This document shows positions 12,375-25,232 of a DNA stretch of 45,263 nt, piece after piece. The DNA is taken from the NCBI GenBank assembly GCA_944386445.1, contig CALXBD010000089.1, positions 1-45,263 on the forward strand, given 5' to 3'. Under the pieces are notes generated by a model. That model saw only the letters and a program-made list of their open reading frames with translations, did no database searches and was not told the DNA's origin. The translations under genes were made by a program, and so were the position numbers. Within the stretch, counting starts at the first letter, position 1. Every line of letters begins with the position of its first letter. Origin of the DNA: an uncultured Clostridia bacterium. Its GTDB lineage: Bacteria > Bacillota > Clostridia > Oscillospirales > Ruminococcaceae.

Positions 12375-13316
12375 TTACTCTGTTTGAAAGCTTTCCAGTG
12401 GGAATGCCCACGGTGTCCGTTTCCGGAAGGGGGTTTTGAATTTTTTGCTTAAAACGCCTTTTTCCTCCAGATGAATGTAGCATGCTACATCACAGGCGCG
12501 TCCGCAAATGGAACATTGATAGCTGTGCATTGCTGGCGGATAAAAATGGATTTGATCCAGAATTTTCCGGGCTTTTTCGGGAGTCAACCGGGCTTCACCG
12601 GCAATGATCTCAAGACGATCCGGAAAATCGGAAAAGGCATCTGGCGGCATGAACGGATTACGGGTTCCATTTGCGCCGTTATAATAAACGGCACACTGCC
12701 ACGAATCTAAATGGCCGTTGTTGTCAATAGCGTGTCCCGGACATGCTTCTGCGCACTTCCCACAGCGGTCGCAAAGCATGGGTTCCCTGACCGGATCCGC
12801 TTCCAACTCCGCGTCGGTCAGTACAAAGCAGCAACGTACCATCGGCCCAAATTCCTGGGTCAGCAGTGCGCCGTGAAAGCTCTTTTCTCCCAGTCCACAG
12901 GCTACAGCTGCCTCGATAAAGTCAAACTGAGGTTCTGCTGTTTTCCTCCTGTAAACCAACGCGTATGCTACCTCCGGATTGGTACTGTTTTCGTCTTCCA
13001 TGATGGTTTGATGCCTTCTTTGAGGAATTCCCAAATATCCCTCTTCTTCCAAAAGCAGGCTTACTTGCAGTGCAGCTCCGGGCATGATGGTTTCTTCCAA
13101 CGTTTCTACACCCATGGTGGTATACTGGTAATAAGTAGAACCCTCTTCAATTCCCCGATAACACCCCCGCAGTACCCGGAACCCTAACCCGATCACGGTT
13201 TTTGTTTCGGGGAAGATGTCAAAAATCTTGTGATCCGGCGCAAATCGTTCCGCAGGGGCAAATCCTACCAGATCAGCCCCATAAGACTTCGCAGCCGCGA
13301 TAATCCGCTCTTTCAT
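12375..13316 (-). CDS. QueG-like double [4Fe-4S] protein, paralogue 3
   Basis: 313 residues from the ATG at 13316, which overlaps the preceding stop (ATGA) and follows AAGGAGG. The N-terminal half resembles the cobalamin-binding part of epoxyqueuosine reductase and reductive dehalogenases (KTVIGLGFRVLRG; AVACGLGEKS; LLTQEFGPMVR; FVLTDAELEAD). Two cysteine clusters follow: LCDRCGKCAEACPG (CX2CX2CX3C) and SICGRACDVACY (CX2CX3CX3C as seen with the preceding Cys), plus a conserved WQCAVYY. HEAT repeats of true QueG are absent, so tRNA modification is unlikely. It probably transfers electrons to, or reduces, an organic substrate. It is the last of three tandem paralogues; a cobalamin cofactor is possible but not proven. 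Confidence 0.8.
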   Translation of the reverse strand: MKERIIAAAKSYGADLVGFAPAERFAPDHKIFDIFPETKTVIGLGFRVLRGCYRGIEEGSTYYQYTTMGVETLEETIMPGAALQVSLLLEEEGYLGIPQRRHQTIMEDENSTNPEVAYALVYRRKTAEPQFDFIEAAVACGLGEKSFHGALLTQEFGPMVRCCFVLTDAELEADPVREPMLCDRCGKCAEACPGHAIDNNGHLDSWQCAVYYNGANGTRNPFMPPDAFSDFPDRLEIIAGEARLTPEKARKILDQIHFYPPAMHSYQCSICGRACDVACYIHLEEKGVLSKKFKTPFRKRTPWAFPLESFQTE

Positions 13317-14218
13317 AGCAAGCCTTCCTCCTTTAAGTGCCGATAACACGCGATGTCGCAAGCTTTCCCGCAAAGGCAAGGCGAGTAGCCGTTTTGCGTG
13401 TTGGGAAGAAAATTCAGCTTTGGATATAGTGCTCGGGCCGATTTCGCATCAAAACGTTTTTTACCGCAGCGGATAGCATCCTGTTCCGGATCACCCGCCA
13501 GAAAATCCTCCTCCTGAAAGGGATTAGAACGGTGGGCACCTTTATAGTATACCGAACACTGCCAGGTATCCAGGCCTTCCGGGCCAATGGCGTTGCCGGG
13601 ACAGGCATCTGCACATTTTCCGCAGTTGTCACAAAGTCCTCCGGGAAAAGCCGGGTCCGGTTCCAGCGGAGCATCAGTAATCAGAAATGCCCACCGCAGG
13701 AAAGGCCCATACTTTGGAGCCAGAATGTGACCGCTCAGTCCCACCTGGCCCAGTCCGCAGGCTTCAGCCGCCTTTCCAAAGTCGATCATTACGTCCGGAA
13801 CTGGCTTTCCAGGAGCCACGGCCACCGCATGAACCAGTTCATAGGTATCCAGCACCTCGGGATTCGTCGTTTTGTCCCCCTGTCGGCGCAGATTGGGAAC
13901 TGTGCGCTGTAGGCAGGCGTCCCATCCCTCATCCTCAATGAGCCTCGCCATTTTGATGAGGAAGATTTCCGCCCATTCCTCGTCTATGTATTTAACTCCC
14001 ATTGTCGTATAGGCGTAATGCTGCCGGCTGGTCTCCAGCAGATGGTAAAGTCCTCTCGGAACTGCAAATCCGAAGCCAATGATAGCCTTTGCCGCCGGGA
14101 GAATCTGCAATGGGTCTTTGGACAACGCTTCTCCTTTGAATAAGTCCAGGCTTCCGATTCCGCAGAGACTGGCTCCATATTCCCGTGCTTTCTCTTTAAT
14201 AAGCTGCGCAGTCAGCAT
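13313..14218 (-). CDS. QueG-like double [4Fe-4S] protein, paralogue 2
   Basis: 301 residues. KAIIGFGFAVPRGLYH and EACGLGQVGLSGHILAPKYGP match the QueG/RdhA-type core, followed by LITDAPLEPDP. Ferredoxin-like cysteines lie at C196, C199, C202 and C206 (LCDNCGKCADACPG), with a second set at C281, C283, C287 and C291 (CLCGKACDIACY) and the shared WQCSVYY (C221). Start ATG at 14218 is preceded by GAGGAGGG. It is 12 nt downstream of paralogue 1 and overlaps paralogue 3, so all three should be made together, perhaps as a heteromeric complex. No HEAT or corrinoid-protein domain is appended. Confidence 0.8.
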   Translation of the reverse strand: MLTAQLIKEKAREYGASLCGIGSLDLFKGEALSKDPLQILPAAKAIIGFGFAVPRGLYHLLETSRQHYAYTTMGVKYIDEEWAEIFLIKMARLIEDEGWDACLQRTVPNLRRQGDKTTNPEVLDTYELVHAVAVAPGKPVPDVMIDFGKAAEACGLGQVGLSGHILAPKYGPFLRWAFLITDAPLEPDPAFPGGLCDNCGKCADACPGNAIGPEGLDTWQCSVYYKGAHRSNPFQEEDFLAGDPEQDAIRCGKKRFDAKSARALYPKLNFLPNTQNGYSPCLCGKACDIACYRHLKEEGLL

Positions 14219-14230
14219 TCTGATCCCTCC

Positions 14231-15313
14231 TCACCGATCTAGCTTCCAGGGCTTTCCGGTCCGCAGCGGAGCCCGGAATCGTCCTTCCATACAGCCGCCT
14301 TTTTTCTCCAGCATGCTGACGCAGGCTCGGATACAGCCTCCGCACTTGGCCATATTGTAGCCTACCCAGCTGGGAAAGTATTTTTGCAGCGCCGTATATA
14401 CCTTCAAGATTTCCTGCTCGTCTGCAACGTCGGTTTTTCCTTCCAGCAAGTCAAGATCACCGTTTTCGTTTTTATCGAAGACCTCTTTGGGTACAAACGG
14501 ATTATAATATCGTCCTGCATGGGTATAAAAGGCGTAGCAGCGCCACATGTCAATATCGCCCCACTCGCAGATTTTGCCGTCCAGATCCACCCGGACTGTC
14601 CGGTCCATGGGGATGCACTGTCCAGGACATTCCCGGACACAGGCATAGCAGCGGCGGCACAACGGTTCTCCATGATACATCTCATCGTATTCCAGCTCTG
14701 CGTCCGTAAACAGAAAAGCCACCCGTTGAAGTGGTCCAAATTGTGGCGTCAATAGCATTTTACTGTAGCCAATTTCTCCCAGTCCGCAGGCTACGGCCGC
14801 CAGCCGGAACTGAAACTGTAAGTCCGGCGCAACGGTTCCTTCCCGGACAGGACGCGTAAACTGTACGGAACGATGATGGGCAGTCGAAGTCCGGGCGCTT
14901 TCGTTGACCTCGATTTGCTCTTCAGGCGAAAGAGTATTGCCGGGAGAGCCGTCCATATCCGAAACACAGCCCCGTGCGCCGGTATTACGGTAAACAAAGG
15001 CTTCATATCCTTCATCTTCGATTACCTTTCCCACTTGGTACAAAACCGCCGGGGCAAAAATTTCATTGATCCCGCCGTAGGCCATGGAAGGATACTGGTA
15101 AAACTGTGTTCCTTCTTCGATTCCCCGTTGAACCCCCCGGGGGATCCGGAAAATAAATCCGATTACACTTTTTGCTTCCGGAAACAGGAACCGGGGATTC
15201 ATCTCATCCGGAGCCCCTTTGAGCCGGGACATGGGAGCGATTCCACAAGCATCGGCACCGGCTGCGAGAGCCGCCTCTTTGATCATTTTACTGGTCAGCA
15301 CTTTACTCATCAT
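14231..15313 (-). CDS. QueG-like double [4Fe-4S] protein, paralogue 1 (largest)
   Basis: 360 residues. Same core as the two downstream paralogues: KSVIGFIFRIPRGVQRG, AVACGLGEIGYSKMLLTPQFGP, LFTDAELEYD, then CRRCYACVRECPGQCI and a shorter second set KCGGCIRACVSM, with WRCYAFY in place of WQCxVYY. It carries a unique insert of about 40 residues (around 110-150) that may form a substrate loop. The start codon at 15313 overlaps the upstream stop (ATGATG; the second ATG at 15310 has slightly better spacing from GAAAGG). Divergence among the three copies suggests different roles rather than simple duplication. Confidence 0.8.
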   Translation of the reverse strand: MMSKVLTSKMIKEAALAAGADACGIAPMSRLKGAPDEMNPRFLFPEAKSVIGFIFRIPRGVQRGIEEGTQFYQYPSMAYGGINEIFAPAVLYQVGKVIEDEGYEAFVYRNTGARGCVSDMDGSPGNTLSPEEQIEVNESARTSTAHHRSVQFTRPVREGTVAPDLQFQFRLAAVACGLGEIGYSKMLLTPQFGPLQRVAFLFTDAELEYDEMYHGEPLCRRCYACVRECPGQCIPMDRTVRVDLDGKICEWGDIDMWRCYAFYTHAGRYYNPFVPKEVFDKNENGDLDLLEGKTDVADEQEILKVYTALQKYFPSWVGYNMAKCGGCIRACVSMLEKKGGCMEGRFRAPLRTGKPWKLDR

Positions 15314-16371
15314 CCTTTCATATATTCTGTTGTCTCCATTCCCAGAGATATTTCCTCAGGCAGCCGGACGCGAATATTTTCGTAGACTTCGCTGCAGTAT
15401 CCGCAGCTGCCGCAGTTTTTCCGACAATGAAGAACCGTTTCCCCAAAGTCTTTCGGGAACTGGCCGTTTTCCAAAAGTTCCGGATAAAGGACTCCGGTGT
15501 GGTCCGGCTCCAGCAGCCCTAAAACGCTGCCGGAATACTTCTCCATACAATATGCTCTAAGGATTTGCGCCGGATGGGAGGTGACGCGGGTAGCCAGCTT
15601 CATGGCAGGGAACAGTCCTTCATATAAAGAGACGTCCTCCGGGCGGATGAAACCTACATCCCGAATCAAAGATACCCGTTTTTCGGGTTTTGTCAGGTAT
15701 TCTCGGCAGATACCGGGAAAATCATAGGCGTTGTCCATGGCTGCAATCTCTGCCTCATGAGACACCAGGTTGTCGTGAAAGGTGTGGGCCGGACAGTAGT
15801 TCATGCAGCCGCTGTTAGCCAGAGCAAACAGTCCCTTTCCGTTTTCGTGGCACCAATCCCGGAGTTCCTCTATGACTTCCAGATTTCGATTTTGTTCCCG
15901 CTGAAGGTAGAATTCATCAAAATATTCTGCCAGACAATCCATGCCCTGCTGCGTACCGATCCCCATATTTACCGAAGCGCGTACCTTCAGCTCCGGAAAA
16001 TTGTTTCGTATGAATTTGGCAATCAGCGGCGATGCTGTTGTCACCGAATGAATTTGGTATTTTCCTGCTAAGCTCTCTACCGTTCGTCCGACCTTCAGGA
16101 AAAACGCCCGGGACTGGCTGTCCTTTCCGTAACAATTCCCGTTAAAGAGCAGATTCAGCGGAATGCCGGCATCTGAAATGATTTTTAAATCCTCTGCCTG
16201 TTGTGTCTGGGCTTCCCATTCCGTCATCTCCCCGTTTTGGTACATCGTGCCCCGGCCGCTGGCAAAGTTGCCCCAGGAAAAGTAAACCTCATAAAGATGC
16301 TCCTTTTGCCGGAGAATCTCCTCCAAAAAATCCCGGGTAGGGCGCATTTGATAGCCTGCCATAAACTGCAT
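15310..16371 (-). CDS. U32 peptidase/UbiU-UbiV-like Fe-S protein
   Basis: 353 residues. A TIM-barrel-like protein related to the U32 'collagenase-like' group, which includes RlhA, TrhP and the O2-independent hydroxylase pair UbiU/UbiV. Cysteines suited to an Fe-S cluster are at C80, C189 and C193 (GCMNYCPAHTF), and a second group sits near the end: C316, C320, C323 and C326 (CRKNCGSCGYC), unusual for plain U32 peptidases. Other motifs: NLLFNGNCYG, VRASVNMGIG, FIRPEDVSLYEG. ATG at 16371 lies 9 nt after AAAGGA. As first gene of an operon with three Fe-S proteins, it may carry out a redox modification rather than proteolysis; that is inference. Confidence 0.72.
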   Translation of the reverse strand: MQFMAGYQMRPTRDFLEEILRQKEHLYEVYFSWGNFASGRGTMYQNGEMTEWEAQTQQAEDLKIISDAGIPLNLLFNGNCYGKDSQSRAFFLKVGRTVESLAGKYQIHSVTTASPLIAKFIRNNFPELKVRASVNMGIGTQQGMDCLAEYFDEFYLQREQNRNLEVIEELRDWCHENGKGLFALANSGCMNYCPAHTFHDNLVSHEAEIAAMDNAYDFPGICREYLTKPEKRVSLIRDVGFIRPEDVSLYEGLFPAMKLATRVTSHPAQILRAYCMEKYSGSVLGLLEPDHTGVLYPELLENGQFPKDFGETVLHCRKNCGSCGYCSEVYENIRVRLPEEISLGMETTEYMKG

Positions 16372-16389
16372 CAGCTCACGTCCTTTCCA

Positions 16390-16406
16390 AACAAAAGAAT
16401 TTTGTT
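16390..16406. promoter_or_regulatory. Inverted repeat in leader of Fe-S operon, candidate operator
   Basis: Perfect 7-bp inverted repeat AACAAAA-GAA-TTTTGTT, located just downstream of the presumed start of the leftward transcript and upstream of the U32-like gene. Its place suggests binding of a regulator, possibly the divergent AraC protein. Confidence 0.45.
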
Positions 16407-16414
16407 CTGATACC

Positions 16415-16443
16415 TTGATTATACAACCTCATCACCCTATAAT
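16415..16443 (+). promoter_or_regulatory. Promoter of AraC-type regulator gene
   Basis: TTGATT, 17-nt spacer, TATAAT, reading right to the regulator gene at 16497. The -35 overlaps the -10 of the opposite promoter. Confidence 0.7.
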
Positions 16444-16446
16444 AAA
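16418..16446 (-). promoter_or_regulatory. Promoter of U32/QueG-like operon
   Basis: Consensus TATAAT at 16418-16423 on the minus strand with a poor -35 (TTTATT) 17 nt away. A weak -35 with a perfect -10 fits an activator-dependent promoter, and it overlaps the divergent regulator promoter. Confidence 0.6.
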
Positions 16447-16496
16447 TAGAGAAACAAAAACTAAAACTTTCAAAAACAAAGATTTGGAGGAGTTTT

Positions 16497-17342
16497 GTGA
16501 GCAGCCGGAAACTGGAACCGTTTATCCGCTATGCGGAAAAGACCGATTACCTTCCCAACAGGGATTTTGTTTGTGCCTATGACTGTAGGCTGCTTTATTG
16601 CCTTAGCGGGCGGGGGACACTCCGCTTCGAAGACGCGGCCTATCAGCTTGTGCCCGGAACCCTGTGCCTGTATCCATCGGGTATCCGATATCTGCCGTTG
16701 AGCGCTGCGGAGGAGCCAATGCAGTTTGTCATTTTGAATTTTGATTATACCTGCAGCCATTCCGAGCAGGTGAATACTTTTGAACCGGTTCGTCCTGAGC
16801 TGTTCGATTCAAGACGATTCATTCCAAGCTGGGGTGAAACCGGGGAACCAAACTTTGAAAAACCACAAATTCTGCCGGATTTCCAGAACGTTGAAAACGA
16901 GCTTCTGGAGATTGTCAGAGAGTGGAAGATGAAACAGCTTCATTACCGGGAAGTCGCCTCTTCACTTCTGACTCCGGTTCTATATCGGGTTCTGCGCCGT
17001 TTAGCCGTCAGTACGCAAGGGGGCCAGAGGGTAGAGGAGGTGCTTGATTTTATTCATACGCATTATGCCCAGCATTTGGACTATGGCCTCATGGCGCAGC
17101 GCTTTCATTACCATCCATATTATTTAAATGCTCTCATAAAAGCTCGGACGGGACAGTCTCTGCATCGATACCTTTTGGGGTATCGGATCCGGGAGGCCTG
17201 CCGCCTGCTTGTATCCACCGATGACTTGGTCGGAGAGATCGCCCGTGCAGTGGGCTTTGAAAATAAAGACCATTTTTCAGCCAGTTTTAAAAAGATCATT
17301 GGGTTATCCCCGCTGCAGTATCGGAAGGAGCATAATCTATAA
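16497..17342 (+). CDS. AraC-family transcriptional regulator
   Basis: 281 residues starting at GTG 16497, 6 nt after GGAGG. Residues about 25-85 form a cupin-like sensor domain (LLYCLSGRGTLRFED, LVPGTLCLYPSGIRYLPL). Residues about 180-281 hold two helix-turn-helix units: LDYGLMAQRFHYHPYYLNALIKA and DLVGEIARAVGFENKDHFSASF, ending with the signature GLSPLQYRKE. The cupin suggests a sugar or small organic ligand. It is divergent from the U32/QueG-like operon with overlapping promoters and most likely controls it and itself. Confidence 0.92.
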   Translation: MSSRKLEPFIRYAEKTDYLPNRDFVCAYDCRLLYCLSGRGTLRFEDAAYQLVPGTLCLYPSGIRYLPLSAAEEPMQFVILNFDYTCSHSEQVNTFEPVRPELFDSRRFIPSWGETGEPNFEKPQILPDFQNVENELLEIVREWKMKQLHYREVASSLLTPVLYRVLRRLAVSTQGGQRVEEVLDFIHTHYAQHLDYGLMAQRFHYHPYYLNALIKARTGQSLHRYLLGYRIREACRLLVSTDDLVGEIARAVGFENKDHFSASFKKIIGLSPLQYRKEHNL

Positions 17343-17440: not shown

Positions 17441-18481
17441 TCAGATATTGGCCCAAACCCGTTTTTCAGCGGATTCCATAATTGCGTCCAACACCCGTTG
17501 GCAGGAAAGTCCTTCCTCCAGCCCAGGGGTGAAAGGATCCTTTTCCCCGCGAAGCATCCGGATAAATTCCCTCATTTGTACAGAGTGAGCAAAGTATTCC
17601 TCGGGAACGGCATGCTCCGCAAAAGCTCCGTCTTCCAGCATCCAGAGCCGGTCATTGTGGTTTAAATTGAAGCGCAGCGCTCCCTTATCCCCATAAATTT
17701 CCATGGAAATAGTATTTTTATGTCCGATTGCGCACCGGGTGATGCCAAAGGTTCCGATCGCTCCTCCAGAATATTCGGCCAGGAAATTGCAGGTGTCGTC
17801 TGTTTCCACTGGAGCCAGTTCCTCGCTGTCCAGCCGTTTCCGCCAGGGAACCACTGTCTGCAGATCTGCACAAACGCGTGTTACGGGTCCGGCCAGGAAA
17901 GTAGATAGATCGAGCAGATGAACTCCGAGGTCACCGGAAACCCCATAACGGGCGTATTCTTTTACAAAACGCCAATCCAGCCGGCGCCCTTCTATAAAGG
18001 CGCTGTCCTTCAGGTACTGCACATATACCGAATTGATTTTTCCTAATTTTCCATCTTCAACATATTTCCGCGCATACCGAACCGCCGGCATGAAACGGTA
18101 AGAAAAGCAGACCATTGCCGGAATCCCAGCCGCAGATGCCGCCTTGTAAAGGGCTTCCACTTCCTCCACGTTGATCCCTACTGGCTTTTCCACGCTGAAA
18201 GGCTTTCGTGCCGATACCGCTTCCATAGCCATGGGGCAGTGAAGGTAGTTGGGGGTACAAATGTCTACCGCATCCACATCCTCGCATGCAATCAGGGCCT
18301 TGTAATCGGAAAACTGCCGCTCTGATGGGACACCGTATTTTTCCGCTGTGCGCTTCAAGGCTTCCGGATTAATATCGCAAAGTGCGGTAATGGTCACGCC
18401 ATCCTCTTCGCTGAGTTGTGGAAGATGAACTCCATTTGCAATTCCTCCGCAGCCAATCAGGCCGATCCGAATAGGTTTCAT
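17441..18481 (-). CDS. Gfo/Idh/MocA-family NAD(P)-dependent oxidoreductase
   Basis: 346 residues. The Rossmann domain has IGLIGCGGIANGVHLPQL, CDINPEALKRTAEKYGV and the conserved EKPVG with catalytic-site Lys near 97. The C-terminal domain has the substrate motif SGDLGVHLLDL with the conserved His. These enzymes oxidise or reduce hydroxyls of sugars, inositols and related compounds. The ATG at 18481 overlaps the ThuA stop (ATGA) and follows AAAGGAG. ThuA plus Gfo/Idh is a recurring catabolic pair acting on 3-keto sugars (trehalose utilisation type), so a 3-keto glycoside route is plausible. Specific substrate unknown. Confidence 0.9.
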   Translation of the reverse strand: MKPIRIGLIGCGGIANGVHLPQLSEEDGVTITALCDINPEALKRTAEKYGVPSERQFSDYKALIACEDVDAVDICTPNYLHCPMAMEAVSARKPFSVEKPVGINVEEVEALYKAASAAGIPAMVCFSYRFMPAVRYARKYVEDGKLGKINSVYVQYLKDSAFIEGRRLDWRFVKEYARYGVSGDLGVHLLDLSTFLAGPVTRVCADLQTVVPWRKRLDSEELAPVETDDTCNFLAEYSGGAIGTFGITRCAIGHKNTISMEIYGDKGALRFNLNHNDRLWMLEDGAFAEHAVPEEYFAHSVQMREFIRMLRGEKDPFTPGLEEGLSCQRVLDAIMESAEKRVWANI

Positions 18482-19278
18482 TTGTTTTGCTCCTTTCCTC
18501 CGCTGCCGGGAAGATCCAAATGCTTTCGTTCCCGATCAGAACGTCCTTCAAATTTATCTTTTACAGGCTCCAACGCTTCATAATGTCCCAGAGTAGGGTG
18601 GGGACCTCCTGAAGGTTTTGCCCATTCTACGGCGTTTTTCAAAAGTTGTGAGATGTCCTCTCTGTAAAAAGTGGGGTATTCCTCATGACCGGGCCGGAAA
18701 TAAAAGATTTTTCCCAAACCGCGATAATAGCAGCAGCCGCTGCGGAAAACCTCTCCGCCGGAAAACCAGCTGATGAAAACAAGGTTGTCAGGCGCAGGAA
18801 CTTCAAAACGTTCTCCATATGTCTCTTCCTGAGGCAACTCTATGTATTCCGGCAACCCCCGGGCAATCGGATGCCCCGGCTCAATGACCCAGATGCGTTC
18901 CAATTCATCGTTTTCCCGCCATTTGGAGCGGCAAACCGTGCCCATAAGCCGGACGAAGGGCTTACACAGATGAGCTGAATGTAAAACAATGAATCCCATA
19001 CCGTCCAGTACCCGCAGTTGAACACGCTTTGCAATTTCATCCGGAATTTTGTCGTGAGCACAATGTGCCCACCAGACCAGGACATCCGTCTGATCCAGCA
19101 ATTCCTGGGACAGGCCGCATTCCGGATCTTCTAATGTAGCTGTGCGTACCTGATAGTGCTCGTTTCCTGCAAAAATCTGTCGGATTGCTCCGTGAATCCC
19201 CTCCGGGTAGACCTTTGCAATTTTGGGGGATTTTTCGGAAAGGAATTCATTCCATACGGTGATTTTGATAGGCTCCAT
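18478..19278 (-). CDS. ThuA-family protein (trehalose utilisation-like)
   Basis: 266 residues with the class I glutamine amidotransferase-like fold of ThuA: KITVWNEFLSEK, VLVWWAHCAHDKI, DGMGFIVLHSAH, VIEPGHPIARGL, GKIFYFRPGHEEYP. ThuA of rhizobia takes part in breakdown of 3-keto-trehalose-like products; the WNE and WWxHxxHDKIP motifs place this protein in that branch. ATG at 19278 follows GAAGGAGG. First gene of a two-gene operon with the Gfo/Idh oxidoreductase, divergent from an AraC regulator. The tail after residue 235 is charged and not conserved as far as I can tell. Confidence 0.88.
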   Translation of the reverse strand: MEPIKITVWNEFLSEKSPKIAKVYPEGIHGAIRQIFAGNEHYQVRTATLEDPECGLSQELLDQTDVLVWWAHCAHDKIPDEIAKRVQLRVLDGMGFIVLHSAHLCKPFVRLMGTVCRSKWRENDELERIWVIEPGHPIARGLPEYIELPQEETYGERFEVPAPDNLVFISWFSGGEVFRSGCCYYRGLGKIFYFRPGHEEYPTFYREDISQLLKNAVEWAKPSGGPHPTLGHYEALEPVKDKFEGRSDRERKHLDLPGSGGKEQNK

Positions 19279-19322
19279 TTAAATGCCTCCTTCATCCTGT
19301 TTTGGATTTTCTGCTTGCTATC

Positions 19323-19352
19323 ATTGTAATTTGCAGCCGTTTTTGTTACAAT
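19323..19352. promoter_or_regulatory. Symmetrical divergent promoter pair (ThuA operon and AraC gene)
   Basis: Inverted repeat ATTGTAA-N16-TTACAAT. On the plus strand it reads TTGTAA-N17-TACAAT toward the AraC gene; on the minus strand it reads exactly TTGTAA-N17-TACAAT toward the ThuA gene. Each -35 occupies the same bases as the other strand's -10. Confidence 0.75.
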
Positions 19353-19399
19353 GTATCTGTCGGTAGGATTTTTGTAAAAAAACGCAAATGGAGGCCGTT

Positions 19400-20251
19400 A
19401 TGCGAAAAATTGCTTTGCAGCAGCTTCAGGATATGGATGTTTCATTTTACCGGCTGATATCTATGCGGTATTCCTGGGCGCCCGGATCTGTGGATCGCTT
19501 TGTGGAGCGTGCGAGGGCTGATAATTTGTTGGTTTACCTCATCCACGGGGAACGTCACTATACTAAAGATGAAAACAGCAAAGAGGAGTTTCTGCAAATT
19601 GTAGGCGGAGATATTCTATTTGCCCCTACTGGAAGCAATTATGTTTCTACGCTTCAGCTCAAAGAGGGGGAAGCTTTCTCGGAAGGAATCTTTGTGAATT
19701 TTGCAATCCGGGATGAACAGGGACAGGAAATTTGTCCCGGTGACCTCCCTGTCTGGATGGCCCATGACATCGATGGACGATACTTTCGGATGTTTGAAAA
19801 ACTGCTAACTTCTGTGCTGCAGGGAAGCGGCGGAAATCTATCTTCCAAAGCACAGCTTTCGCGTCTCTTGCAGGAATTGATTGCCCAGGTCAGAATTCAG
19901 GATTCTTTTGGACCGGAATTGGAAGCAATATATCCTGCTGTCATAAGGCTGGAACGCTGCCCTCAGGAGCCTGTTTCGGTGCCGGAGCTGGCAAAGCTCT
20001 GCTTTTTGAGTGAGAGTACCTTTCGGAAAAAGTTCGAAACGTACGCTCACGTTTCTCCGATCCAATATCGAAATCGGATTCGGCTTCAGAAGGCGATTGG
20101 ACTCCTTCGAAACGGCATCTACACCGTGGAAGAAACGGCTGAGGCGATGGGGTATCACGATGCGGCACATCTCAGTAATGCTGTCAAAAAGGCAACAGGC
20201 ATGACACCAAGGGAGATCGCAGGAACAGTGTCCGATAATTCCGATACATAA
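19400..20251 (+). CDS. AraC-family transcriptional regulator
   Basis: 283 residues from ATG 19400, 5 nt after GGAGG; an in-frame ATG at 19388 overlaps that ribosome binding site and is less likely. N-terminal cupin-like domain (LLVYLIHGERHYT, VGGDILFAPTGSNYVS). C-terminal DNA-binding domain: PVSVPELAKLCFLSESTFRKKFETY, then TVEETAEAMGYHDAAHLSNAVKK and GMTPREIAG. Probably senses a sugar and regulates the divergent ThuA-Gfo/Idh operon. Confidence 0.92.
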   Translation: MRKIALQQLQDMDVSFYRLISMRYSWAPGSVDRFVERARADNLLVYLIHGERHYTKDENSKEEFLQIVGGDILFAPTGSNYVSTLQLKEGEAFSEGIFVNFAIRDEQGQEICPGDLPVWMAHDIDGRYFRMFEKLLTSVLQGSGGNLSSKAQLSRLLQELIAQVRIQDSFGPELEAIYPAVIRLERCPQEPVSVPELAKLCFLSESTFRKKFETYAHVSPIQYRNRIRLQKAIGLLRNGIYTVEETAEAMGYHDAAHLSNAVKKATGMTPREIAGTVSDNSDT

Positions 20252-20316: not shown

Positions 20317-20739
20317 TTAGTGATTTCCTGCACAGCCATGCTTGTCTTCGCCGCAGTGGCAGGAACCGCCCTCTTCGTGACCATGACAGTCATGCCCATC
20401 TTCGTGATGATGGCTGCATACAGTGTCGGGATTATAGCAAAGGTTCCCAGCCAAAAATGCTGCAACCGCTTCATCGGCAGAACCTGTTACGCCTGGATAA
20501 AGCTGAATCCCTGCCTGTGCCAATGCTGTCCGTGCGCCGCCTCCGATGCCCCCGCAAATAAGGACATCCACGCCGCACAGCTTTAGAAAGCCGGCCAGTG
20601 CCCCGTGACCGCCTCCAGACGGAGCAACAGTTTTCGATTCTTTTACTGCGCCGTTTTCCACAACATAAAGCTGGAACAAGGCTGTATGGCCAAAATGTTG
20701 AAATACTTGACCGTTTTCATACGGAACCGCAATCTTCAT
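20317..20739 (-). CDS. NifX/NifB-type dinitrogenase Fe-Mo cofactor-binding-like protein with His/Cys tail
   Basis: 140 residues. Residues 1-100 match the FeMo-co-binding-like fold (KIAVPYENGQVFQHFGHTA; GVDVLICGGIGGGARTAL; GVTGSADEAVAAFLAG), a family found in many anaerobes without nitrogenase. Residues 101-140 form a metal-binding tail very rich in His and Cys (CSHHHEDGHDCHGHEEGG, then CHCGEDKHGC). ATG at 20739 is 7 nt after AAGGAGG. Likely cytoplasmic carrier or sensor of an Fe-S/Mo-Fe-S or other metal cluster; no nitrogenase genes are nearby. Confidence 0.88.
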   Translation of the reverse strand: MKIAVPYENGQVFQHFGHTALFQLYVVENGAVKESKTVAPSGGGHGALAGFLKLCGVDVLICGGIGGGARTALAQAGIQLYPGVTGSADEAVAAFLAGNLCYNPDTVCSHHHEDGHDCHGHEEGGSCHCGEDKHGCAGNH

Positions 20740-20940: not shown

Positions 20941-22020
20941 ATGTTTGATGGACTGAATATGGGAATGGGAAATCTGTATCTGCTTTCAAACGCCAAAACC
21001 CGCTCAATTTCTCCGGAAAATTTTACCGGAGAAAAAGGAAAGGGCGGCATGTGTGAACTGGAAAACGGCTCGGCTAAATCCGCAGCTCGGGAATTAGGAC
21101 GAGGATGGAAGGTCAATCCCTTTATCCGGATCCCGGCTGGGGAAACCTTTGTCATTGCTGATGTGGAGGGTCCCGGCTGTATCCAGCATATTTGGCTGAC
21201 CCCTACGGGCTTTTGGAGGAGTACCATTCTTCGGATTTACTGGGATGATCGGGAAGCGCCTTCCGTTGAGTGCCCCATCGGGGATTTTTTTGCCAGCGGC
21301 TGGAATGAGTTTTCCCAGATATCCTCTTTGGCCGTCTGTGTAAATCCTGGCAGCGCTTTTAACTGCTATTGGCCAATGCCGTTCCGGAAGCATTGCCGCA
21401 TGACGCTTGAGAATCGCAGTGATGATACGATTACCATGTATTATCAGATCGATTATACCCTTACGGATGTTCCGGAAGATGCCGGATATTTCCATGCACA
21501 GTTCAGGCGTGTGAACCCTTTGCCGTATAAATCCAACTATGTTATTTTGGACGGTGTCCGGGGAAAAGGGCAGTATGTCGGTACATACATGGCTTGGGGA
21601 GTCAATAACAGCGGCTGGTGGGGAGAAGGTGAGATCAAATTCTTCCTGGATGGAGATGGAGAATTTCCTACGATCTGCGGTACCGGTACGGAAGATTATT
21701 TCTGCGGCTCCTATAATTTCGAGAATAAAAAAGAGCATCGGTACCAGTCTTTTACCACTCCTTACGCCGGTATGGCCGTAACTGGCACAGATGGCCTATA
21801 CCGCAGTCAACTGCGTTTTGGCTTATACCGCTGGCATATTATGGATCCTATTCGTTTTGAATCAGACCTGAAGGTAACGATTCAGGCGTTGGGCTGGCGC
21901 AATGACGGGCGGTATCTTCCGCTGCAGGATGATATTGCCTCAGTGGCGTTCTGGTATCAGGATGGAGTGGCAGCGCCTTTTCCGGCTTTGCCCGATAGGG
22001 ATGCCTTGGAAGTTATTTAA
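20941..22020 (+). CDS. GH172 (DUF2961) glycoside hydrolase
   Basis: 359 residues. Members of GH172 act on furanosides (difructose dianhydride I, D-arabinofuranosides and related links). Family features seen: the opening KTRSISPENFTGEKGKGGM with the early ENxTG-type motif, PGCIQHIWLT, YWDDREAPSVECPIGDFF, YYQIDYTL, and the active-site region DGDGEFPTICGTGTEDYFCG followed by YRWHIMDPIRF. No signal peptide is present, so the enzyme should act in the cytoplasm on imported oligosaccharide. ATG at 20941 follows AAGGATG. A methyltransferase gene follows 22 nt later and may be cotranscribed. Substrate not predictable here. Confidence 0.9.
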   Translation: MFDGLNMGMGNLYLLSNAKTRSISPENFTGEKGKGGMCELENGSAKSAARELGRGWKVNPFIRIPAGETFVIADVEGPGCIQHIWLTPTGFWRSTILRIYWDDREAPSVECPIGDFFASGWNEFSQISSLAVCVNPGSAFNCYWPMPFRKHCRMTLENRSDDTITMYYQIDYTLTDVPEDAGYFHAQFRRVNPLPYKSNYVILDGVRGKGQYVGTYMAWGVNNSGWWGEGEIKFFLDGDGEFPTICGTGTEDYFCGSYNFENKKEHRYQSFTTPYAGMAVTGTDGLYRSQLRFGLYRWHIMDPIRFESDLKVTIQALGWRNDGRYLPLQDDIASVAFWYQDGVAAPFPALPDRDALEVI

Positions 22021-23861: not shown

Positions 23862-25232
23862 ATGGCAAGAAATACGGATTTTTTTGAAATTACACCTGAT
23901 ATCCAGCGGCTGACAGAACTTTGTATGAGTCATGACGCCATTGATCCTGCCCTTTATACCAAATATGATGTTAAACGAGGCCTGCGGGATATCAACGGCA
24001 AAGGCGTTCTGGCAGGACTGACGGAAATTTCGGATATTATTTCCAGCAAAATGGTGGATGGAAAAAGCGTCTCTTGTGAGGGGGAACTGTATTACCGCGG
24101 AATCAATATCAAGGACTTGACCAACGGATTTATCAAGGAGGATCGTTTCGGATTTGAAGAGACAGTGTATCTTCTCCTGTTTGGTCAACTGCCTACTCGG
24201 GAGGAAGGAAAGGAATTTAAGGAAATTCTTTCCAAATATCGTACCCTGCCGACCAATTTTGTGCGGGATATCATTATGAAGGCCCCGACTCCGGATATGA
24301 TGAATACCCTCGCCAGAAGCGTGCTGACACTTTATGCTTACGATGAAAAAGCCAACGATACATCTTTGCCAAATATTCTGCGGCAATGTATCGAAATGAT
24401 TGCGTTGTTCCCGCAATTGGCAGTTTACGGCTATCAGGCCTATTGCCACAATGCAGATCCAGCAAACAGCTTCTTTATCCATCCTCCCCGTCCGGAGTTG
24501 TCGACCGCGGAGAATATCTTACATATGCTCCGGATCGATAATAAGTACACAAAACTGGAGGCCCGGATTCTGGATTTGGCGTTGGTGCTCCATGCCGAAC
24601 ACGGGGGCGGTAATAACTCCAGCTTTACGACCCATGTGGTGGCTTCGTCCGGAACCGACGCCTATTCGGTGATCGCGGCAGCTTTGGGTTCACTGAAAGG
24701 CCCCAAACACGGCGGTGCAAACATTAAGGTCATGCGGATGTTTGAGGATATGAAGTCCCATGTCAAGGATTGGGAAGACGAGGATGAGGTGAGAGAATAT
24801 CTGAGAGGGCTGTTGAATCGGAAGGGCTTTGACCATTCCGGTCTGATTTATGGCATGGGCCACGCGGTTTACTCCCTCTCTGACCCCAGAGCAGATATTT
24901 TCCGCAGTTTCGTAAAATCTCTGTCGGAAGAAAAGGGACTTACAAAAGAATACAAGCTCTATTCTATGGTTGAGACCTTGGCACCGAAAGTGATCGGTGA
25001 GGAACGCCGGACTTATAAAGGCGTCAGTGCAAATATCGATTTCTACAGCGGTTTTGTATATCATATGCTGGGACTGCCGCCGGAATTGTACACCCCAGTT
25101 TTTGCCATGGCGAGAATTGCAGGCTGGAGCGCCCACTTGATGGAGGAAATCATCAACGCCGGCAAAATTATACGTCCTTCCTATATGAGTATCGGCGCAA
25201 GGCAGGAATATGTTCCGCTAGATCAACGCTGA
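23862..25232 (+). CDS. Citrate synthase (citrate/2-methylcitrate synthase family)
   Basis: 456 residues. Condenses oxaloacetate with acetyl-CoA (or propionyl-CoA) and in a fermenting anaerobe would mainly supply 2-oxoglutarate for glutamate. Catalytic residues are recognisable: H247 in LHAEHGGGNNSS, H334 in IYGMGHAVYSLSDPR, and D393 in ANIDFYSGFVYHMLG. CoA-binding region GSLKGPKHGGANIKVM is present. The N-terminal extension of about 60 residues (to SVSCEGELYYRGINI) is longer than in type I short enzymes. ATG at 23862 lies behind GTAGGAG. No aconitase or isocitrate dehydrogenase gene is near. MarR-led context is unusual. Confidence 0.92.
   Translation: MARNTDFFEITPDIQRLTELCMSHDAIDPALYTKYDVKRGLRDINGKGVLAGLTEISDIISSKMVDGKSVSCEGELYYRGINIKDLTNGFIKEDRFGFEETVYLLLFGQLPTREEGKEFKEILSKYRTLPTNFVRDIIMKAPTPDMMNTLARSVLTLYAYDEKANDTSLPNILRQCIEMIALFPQLAVYGYQAYCHNADPANSFFIHPPRPELSTAENILHMLRIDNKYTKLEARILDLALVLHAEHGGGNNSSFTTHVVASSGTDAYSVIAAALGSLKGPKHGGANIKVMRMFEDMKSHVKDWEDEDEVREYLRGLLNRKGFDHSGLIYGMGHAVYSLSDPRADIFRSFVKSLSEEKGLTKEYKLYSMVETLAPKVIGEERRTYKGVSANIDFYSGFVYHMLGLPPELYTPVFAMARIAGWSAHLMEEIINAGKIIRPSYMSIGARQEYVPLDQR

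Follow-up and report, generated by a model that had tools for sequence, protein, structure and literature searches.

Background

The closest described relatives of the proteins discussed here are the reductive dehalogenases (RdhA) and the RNA-modifying enzyme QueG, both class III corrinoid enzymes, and the U32 proteins. Catalytic roles have been described for a tyrosine and an arginine or lysine of the RdhA proteins PceA and NpRdhA (PMC4646009, PMC10463259), and the 2015 report of the QueG structure suggests that further families dependent on B12 and [4Fe-4S] clusters may exist without a recognizable motif (PMC4646009). Oxidases of the U32 group carry the motif CX6CX15CX3C (PMC11574389). We analyzed a contig of 45,263 nucleotides from an uncultured Clostridia bacterium of the family Ruminococcaceae (CALXBD010000089.1 of assembly GCA_944386445.1), hereafter termed the window. 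It contains a four-gene operon for a predicted U32-fold protein (P0004) and three iron-sulfur proteins that are paralogues of one another (P0003, P0002 and P0001), next to a divergent gene for an AraC-family regulator (P0005). This four-gene set resembles a new branch of reductases dependent on vitamin B12, with an iron-sulfur partner protein and probably with a role in the breakdown of a dietary compound.

A conserved four-gene operon

A preliminary description, made from the window alone, placed a U32-type protein and three QueG/RdhA-like iron-sulfur paralogues beside an AraC regulator. All five genes were confirmed, P0001 to P0004 on the minus strand and P0005 on the plus strand, and relatives keep them as a set. 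With P0003 as the query, 189 relatives were found among 84,980 species genomes, and counts on relatives given here refer to the best 80 of these 189. All four genes occur in identical order in 71 of the 80; thus, their grouping is not due to chance, and the proposed survey of neighborhoods bears out the set. Among the remaining nine loci, five reach contig ends (L010, L025, L050, L066 and L073), and P0004 was undetected in four (L029, L059, L063 and L065).

In the window, the divergent AraC gene is followed by P0004, P0003, P0002, P0001 and a hairpin. The head-to-tail genes, the short junctions, the opposite AraC gene and the hairpin after P0001 show that the four genes form an operon beside a divergently oriented regulator gene. 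Three stop-start overlaps had been claimed, of which two exist, each of 4 bp (15310-15313 between P0004 and P0003, 13313-13316 between P0002 and P0001); the third junction, from P0003 to P0002, is a 12-nt gap. P0001 probably starts at the ATG at position 13316, and an alternative call of 334 amino acids begins at a TTG within P0002. Among relatives, the gap between P0004 and P0003 is at most 30 nt in 68 of 75 loci, and that between P0002 and P0001 is equally short in 73 of 76. In 29 of 77 loci, P0003 and P0002 are separated by a gap of 250-450 nt that holds an extra gene. Its product of ~110-120 amino acids falls into a cupin cluster in 20 of these 29 cases and is cupin-like by eye in seven more (for example, L060:7263-7628). 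It matches Cupin_2 at 21.5 bits, below the cut-off, and the gene is absent from the window.

P0003 is 81-91% identical to the window protein in the 80 relatives, a floor that is partly a product of using P0003 as the query. The median identities to the window proteins over the same loci are 85.7% for P0003, 65.9% for P0001, 63.9% for P0002 and 50.9% for P0004, and the medians of the partners are free of this selection. The relatives are in large part metagenome-assembled genomes from the gut. By our own count, the record titles mention a ruminant gut site in 49 of 80 cases, "Lapin" (read as rabbit) in two and chicken in one, and many others give no host. The set is common to gut bacteria of plant-eating animals. 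No plasmid copies were found at an E value of 1e-10.

Three paralogues related to RdhA and QueG

Because their RdhA scores stay below the family cut-off and the DYH motif of QueG is missing, the paralogues belong to neither family, yet their sequences predict that they work like a class III corrinoid enzyme. The reductive dehalogenase model RDH (TIGR02486) is the top NCBIfam match for P0001, P0002 and P0003, with 51.3, 53.5 and 38.1 bits, respectively, against a cut-off of 160.35; three Dehalobacter-like genomes that served as a control exceed this cut-off many times over. The corresponding QueG (TIGR00276) scores are 35.6, 40.4 and 30.4 bits. Here the cut-off of 200 is uninformative, because none of the DYH-bearing QueG-like genes in the same order scores above 181, and none of 59 genomes reaches the cut-off. 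As a control, 19 QueG-like proteins were taken from 24 loci of the order; all 19 have the DYH motif, which is found in none of 77 P0001, 77 P0002 and 81 P0003 sequences.

The GLG and WxC motifs and two cysteine sets that had been noted are present in all three paralogues. Eight cluster cysteines are invariant in the aligned members (77/77 for P0001, 77/77 for P0002 and 81/81 for P0003), which fits two [4Fe-4S] clusters. In MAFFT alignments, an RdhA-type tyrosine is kept in 74 of 77 P0001 sequences and in every P0002 (77/77) and P0003 (81/81) sequence, and an RdhA-type arginine is kept in 76/77, 77/77 and 81/81, respectively. Counted along alignments to solved chains and by MAFFT, the tyrosine column corresponds to Y426 of NpRdhA and the arginine column to R305 of PceA and K488 of NpRdhA. 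RdhA is therefore the better mechanistic analogue, given that the tyrosine and arginine pair is present and DYH is absent. Comparison of P0001 with QueG by hhalign gave an E value of 2.6e-22 over 199 columns, and comparison with RdhA gave 1.9e-18 with the tyrosines paired. Kinship with both families agrees with the preliminary description; the RdhA cut-off is not reached, and the sequences carry the RdhA-type pair and no DYH.

Pfam matches of the paralogues are headed by Fer4 models, and none corresponds to a HEAT-type C-terminal domain. Some catabolic RdhA proteins lack the membrane partner RdhB. The neighboring genes in the window were read as families other than RdhB, in a reading that included no RdhB profile search.

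All 44 Foldseek matches of the predicted P0003 model at an E value of 0.001 or lower are QueG or RdhA chains; the next matches, with E values above 0.1, are the B12 chaperone CblD, nitroreductases and human MMACHC. A tree was built from 51 proteins: 21 of the window type, 21 simpler or distant paralogues, four RdhA and five QueG. The two sets of 21 form one group (97/97) apart from RdhA and QueG; for this tree, the software flagged that long branches, including RdhA, meet. The simpler and distant paralogues have the tyrosine in 20 of 21 cases and the arginine in all 21. In the same alignment, the QueG rows are unaligned at the tyrosine column although DYH contains a tyrosine, and the five QueG sequences have phenylalanine at the arginine column.

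The U32-type protein

P0004 has the U32 fold according to its structural model. Seven clustered cysteines had been attributed to it. The protein has 11 cysteines in all, of which four (Cys 80, 189, 193 and 222) are invariant in the 75 aligned sequences, whereas 34 of the 75 have the C-terminal four (Cys 316, 320, 323 and 326). The spacing of the invariant residues, C-x108-C-x3-C-x28-C, is not the CX6CX15CX3C motif of U32 oxidases. Comparisons by hhalign with UbiU, UbiV, TrhP and RlhA of Escherichia coli, each represented by a single-sequence template, gave probabilities of 0.2-6.6%, none of them significant. Among 33 members of the P0004 family, no NCBIfam match was found, and Pfam U32 was matched by one, with an E value of 0.0051. 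Beyond the U32 fold, these data do not support the O2-independent hydroxylation that had been suggested. MAFFT places C222 near the third canonical cysteine; we do not rely on this placement, since similarity is too low.

Distant U32 relatives occur elsewhere in the phylum. One locus (L125 of genome G032) has the arrangement AraC-U32-paralogue, and no paralogue match was found in five other stretches, L141 (G022), L142 and L143 (both G181), L144 (G228) and L145 (G151). The U32 proteins of these five keep the CxxxC and C-terminal cysteine groups. Judged by eye, they lie in a cluster that looks biosynthetic, in duplicated loci of a Dehalobacter-like genome and beside CRISPR-type genes.

Simpler modules

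We searched 245 genomes of the order with profiles of P0003 (E value of 1e-30 or lower) and P0004 (1e-15 or lower). P0003 was matched in 21 genomes, P0004 in 16 and both in 15; the overlap therefore comprises 15 of 16 U32 genomes and 15 of 21 paralogue genomes (Fisher p of 2.5e-18, with relatedness of the genomes ignored). The sole U32 genome without a strong paralogue match is G420, in which the U32 gene lies on a contig of 4.9 kb that carries no paralogue.

The arrangement of these genes was surveyed in 34 stretches, in which some paralogue genes were lost to the filtering of overlapping open reading frames (as in L154, L155, L157 and L165), so that the counts are underestimates. One paralogue adjoins a U32 gene in seven stretches (L125, L159, L160, L162, L166, L219 and L220), each with an adjacent AraC gene. 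Two adjacent paralogues without a U32 gene are found in 13 stretches, of which nine have an adjacent AraC gene; the AraC gene is one gene away in L121, and none was called in L119, L120 and L225. AraC control and paralogue number thus vary as modules, of which the set in the window is the largest.

The nine two-paralogue loci that adjoin an AraC gene but lack a U32 gene (L158, L161, L164, L216, L217, L221-L223 and L226; genomes G430, G433, G482, G492, G545, G556, G578, G604 and others) form a recurrent module, in which a short paralogue of ~280-307 amino acids accompanies a long one of ~370-419.

Regulator, non-coding signals and gene neighborhood

Features of the locus, with positions in the window.
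Feature	Position	Strand	Remarks
P0005, AraC-family regulator	16497-17342	+	GTG start; N-terminal AraC_binding/Cupin_2-like domain; divergent from operon
Divergent intergenic region, 125 bp	16372-16496		Between P0004 and P0005
P0004, predicted U32-fold protein, 353 aa	15310-16371	-	Invariant Cys 80, 189, 193, 222; FHDN-x2-HE region
P0003 (paralogue A), 360 aa, putative two-[4Fe-4S] class-III-type protein	14231-15313	-	Tyr74, Arg197
P0002 (paralogue B), 301 aa	13313-14218	-	Tyr70, Arg175
P0001 (paralogue C), 313 aa	12375-13316	-	Tyr65, Arg161
Terminator-like hairpin 3' of P0001	12340-12365	-	10-bp stem, 8 G-C pairs, T-rich tail

P0005 matches the Pfam models HTH_18 (E value of 5.9e-22) and AraC_binding (21.6 bits; cut-off 21.1). 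Of the 73 relatives with enough upstream sequence, 62 have a divergent AraC gene no more than 1.5 kb away. The cupin-type regulator had been taken as a sign of a small-molecule inducer, with which it is consistent without being proof. A search for an AraC operator in the region between P0004 and P0005 found nothing beyond one weak signal, a 9-bp imperfect inverted repeat (16415-16423/16438-16446). A promoter-like match at 16415-16443 is not above chance (four found, shuffle mean 4.8). Terminator-like matches also occur in a chance-level number (eight, shuffle mean 6.9); we use only the hairpin after P0001, because of its place and its stem, the longest among them.

Three cobalamin riboswitches were found in the source genome, with scores of 116.8, 113.8 and 58.8 bits against a cut-off of 31.5. 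One of them, on contig C135, precedes a Peripla_BP_2-FecCD-ABC set of the BtuFCD kind. This riboswitch and transporter set are ~3.7 kb from a 761-amino-acid double-unit paralogue (G000:C135:14381-16666, equivalent to L123:11382-13667), which follows a sensor/regulator pair and is itself followed by genes that read, by eye, as sugar-type ABC transporter genes. A separate DYH-bearing QueG-like gene is also present in the genome (G000:C145, L147).

Directly 3' of P0001 on the same strand, 76 loci have Gfo/Idh genes in 13 cases, genes for DUF5696 (similar to glycoside hydrolase family GH101) in 12, beta-lactamase-fold genes in four and weakly glycoside hydrolase- or epimerase-like genes in two; annotation of the downstream genes was less than systematic in the remaining loci. 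These neighbors are suggestive of a link between the operon and carbohydrates or glycosides. In the window, the operon is adjoined at 17441-20251 by Gfo/Idh and ThuA-family genes (Pfam) and a second divergent AraC-type gene (by eye). Genes of the Nitro_FeMo-Co family, the DUF2961 family and for citrate synthase follow at 20320-20739, 20941-22020 and 23862-25232.

Proposed function

We lean toward a reading, held with somewhat better than even confidence, in which the operon is an AraC-inducible catabolic corrinoid/Fe-S reductase module that acts on a small substrate, perhaps derived from a glycoside. By homology, the paralogues would be reductive enzymes. They would be soluble class-III corrinoid-type proteins, each with a nitroreductase-like corrinoid-binding half and two [4Fe-4S] clusters, and electrons would pass through the clusters to the corrinoid, which would reductively break a bond of a small substrate other than RNA, possibly released from plant or host glycosides. 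As in reductive dehalogenases, the conserved tyrosine, with the arginine as its partner, may donate a proton. The main catalyst is probably P0003, the slowest-evolving and most constrained of the proteins. P0002 and P0001 may be further catalytic or electron-relay subunits of a putative complex, and P0004 may be a partner protein with another [4Fe-4S] cluster that transfers electrons or takes part in a coupled C-O step.

Several observations weigh against this proposal. To our knowledge, no corrinoid-binding motif exists for which the sequences could be checked, and the window contains no cobalamin riboswitch (no Rfam family at gathering score). Three P0001 sequences have phenylalanine at the tyrosine column, and one has lysine at the arginine column. 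The match of the tyrosine rests on MAFFT and on P0001, since hhalign left the two tyrosines of P0003 and RdhA unpaired; against QueG, hhalign aligned P0002 and P0003 over the core alone (86 and 66 columns). The model of P0003 has a predicted local distance difference test (pLDDT) score of 59.8, a poor value that reflects too shallow an alignment (22 sequences, 82-91% identical), and its Foldseek matches have template modeling (TM) scores of ~0.4 and root-mean-square deviations often above 8. The co-occurrence statistic takes no account of relatedness. The Gfo/Idh figure of 13/76 is a raw count without a background rate, DUF5696, which is not an abundant family (one to four match rows per genome in 10 genomes), is beside the operon in two of the 10 (G635 and G544), and in the window the gene next after P0001, beyond the hairpin, encodes a glycosyltransferase. 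Finally, none of 18 other genomes of the same family in the survey of the order has the system, and completeness and contamination of the source genome are 86% and 2%, respectively. The contig (C89) may therefore have been transferred or mis-binned, which would change the host and not the system.

P0004 might itself hydroxylate a small molecule independently of O2, with the paralogues merely supplying or removing electrons and the oxygen perhaps coming from prephenate, as proposed for UbiU, UbiV, TrhP and RlhA. U32 oxidases do act as hydroxylases (PMC11574389), and the modeled fold, the four invariant cysteines and the tight pairing of P0004 with the paralogues are compatible with this idea. 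The missing oxidase motif and the low hhalign probabilities to the single-sequence templates argue against it, as do the two-paralogue modules and the four relatives in which no U32 gene was detected, and we consider it unlikely. The paralogues could instead be electron-transfer or corrinoid-activating ferredoxin-like proteins with no substrate chemistry of their own, in line with their top-ranking Fer4 matches and a weak match of P0003 to a corrinoid reductive activase (E value of 0.13). Given that the full-length paralogues retain the N-terminal half and the tyrosine and arginine pair, and that no corrinoid methyltransferase gene was noticed among the window neighbors read, this too has a low probability.

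True catabolic, cytosolic, NpRdhA-like dehalogenation of halogenated natural or dietary compounds would account for the RdhA-type residue pair and for RDH being the best NCBIfam model, and 59 reductive dehalogenase genes, 53 of them from rumen content, have been reported from non-human gut metagenomes (PMC6048469). Scores so far below the RDH cut-off, a clade separate from Dehalobacter-like RdhA and carbohydrate-type neighbors make this explanation improbable, and a halogenated inducer shared across so many gut lineages seems unlikely. A role in RNA modification would follow from the distant kinship of both protein types with RNA-modifying enzymes. However, the genome has its separate QueG-like gene, the paralogues match no HEAT-type domain, and AraC control and patchy spread (21 of 245 genomes) suit catabolism better, so that we regard such a role as very improbable. 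The catabolic reductase module remains our preferred interpretation.

A broader proposal, which we put forward tentatively and with a little less than even confidence, is that these proteins are a third class III corrinoid family besides QueG and RdhA. It would catalyze a new kind of reduction (such as the cleavage of C-O or C-N bonds in a glycoside-derived metabolite), would have diversified in gut anaerobes into AraC-controlled modules of one, two or three paralogues with or without a U32 protein, and would include part of the rumen genes labeled "reductive dehalogenase." The operon offers a concrete and widespread candidate with a testable signature: eight cysteines, the tyrosine, GPxxR, no DYH, AraC and often U32 neighbors. 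If the proposal is correct, it extends the metabolism of the herbivore gut by new corrinoid chemistry, accounts for some of the corrinoid demand there and may alter how "reductive dehalogenase" matches in rumen data are read.

Comparison with known systems

The four-gene set matches no characterized pathway in the family libraries used, and no description of it was found in the open-licence PMC literature, in agreement with its initial presentation as an undescribed pathway. Among U32 proteins (MK0906, UbiU/UbiV, TrhP and RlhA), P0004 stands apart by its cysteine spacing and has no significant profile match to the four from E. coli. With QueG, the paralogues share the overall class and the eight-cysteine pattern, and P0001 the long profile alignment; they differ in lacking DYH, in having arginine in place of the QueG phenylalanine and in forming a separate clade. 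Compared with RdhA (TIGR02486; PceA and NpRdhA), they fall far under the family cut-off, their N-termini start inside the domain and show no twin-arginine leader, they carry an insert of ~50 residues between the cluster cysteine groups, and they have AraC and U32 partners. What they share with RdhA is the predicted layout of a corrinoid fold and two [4Fe-4S] clusters, a GLGE-type motif, and the tyrosine together with the arginine of GPxxR.

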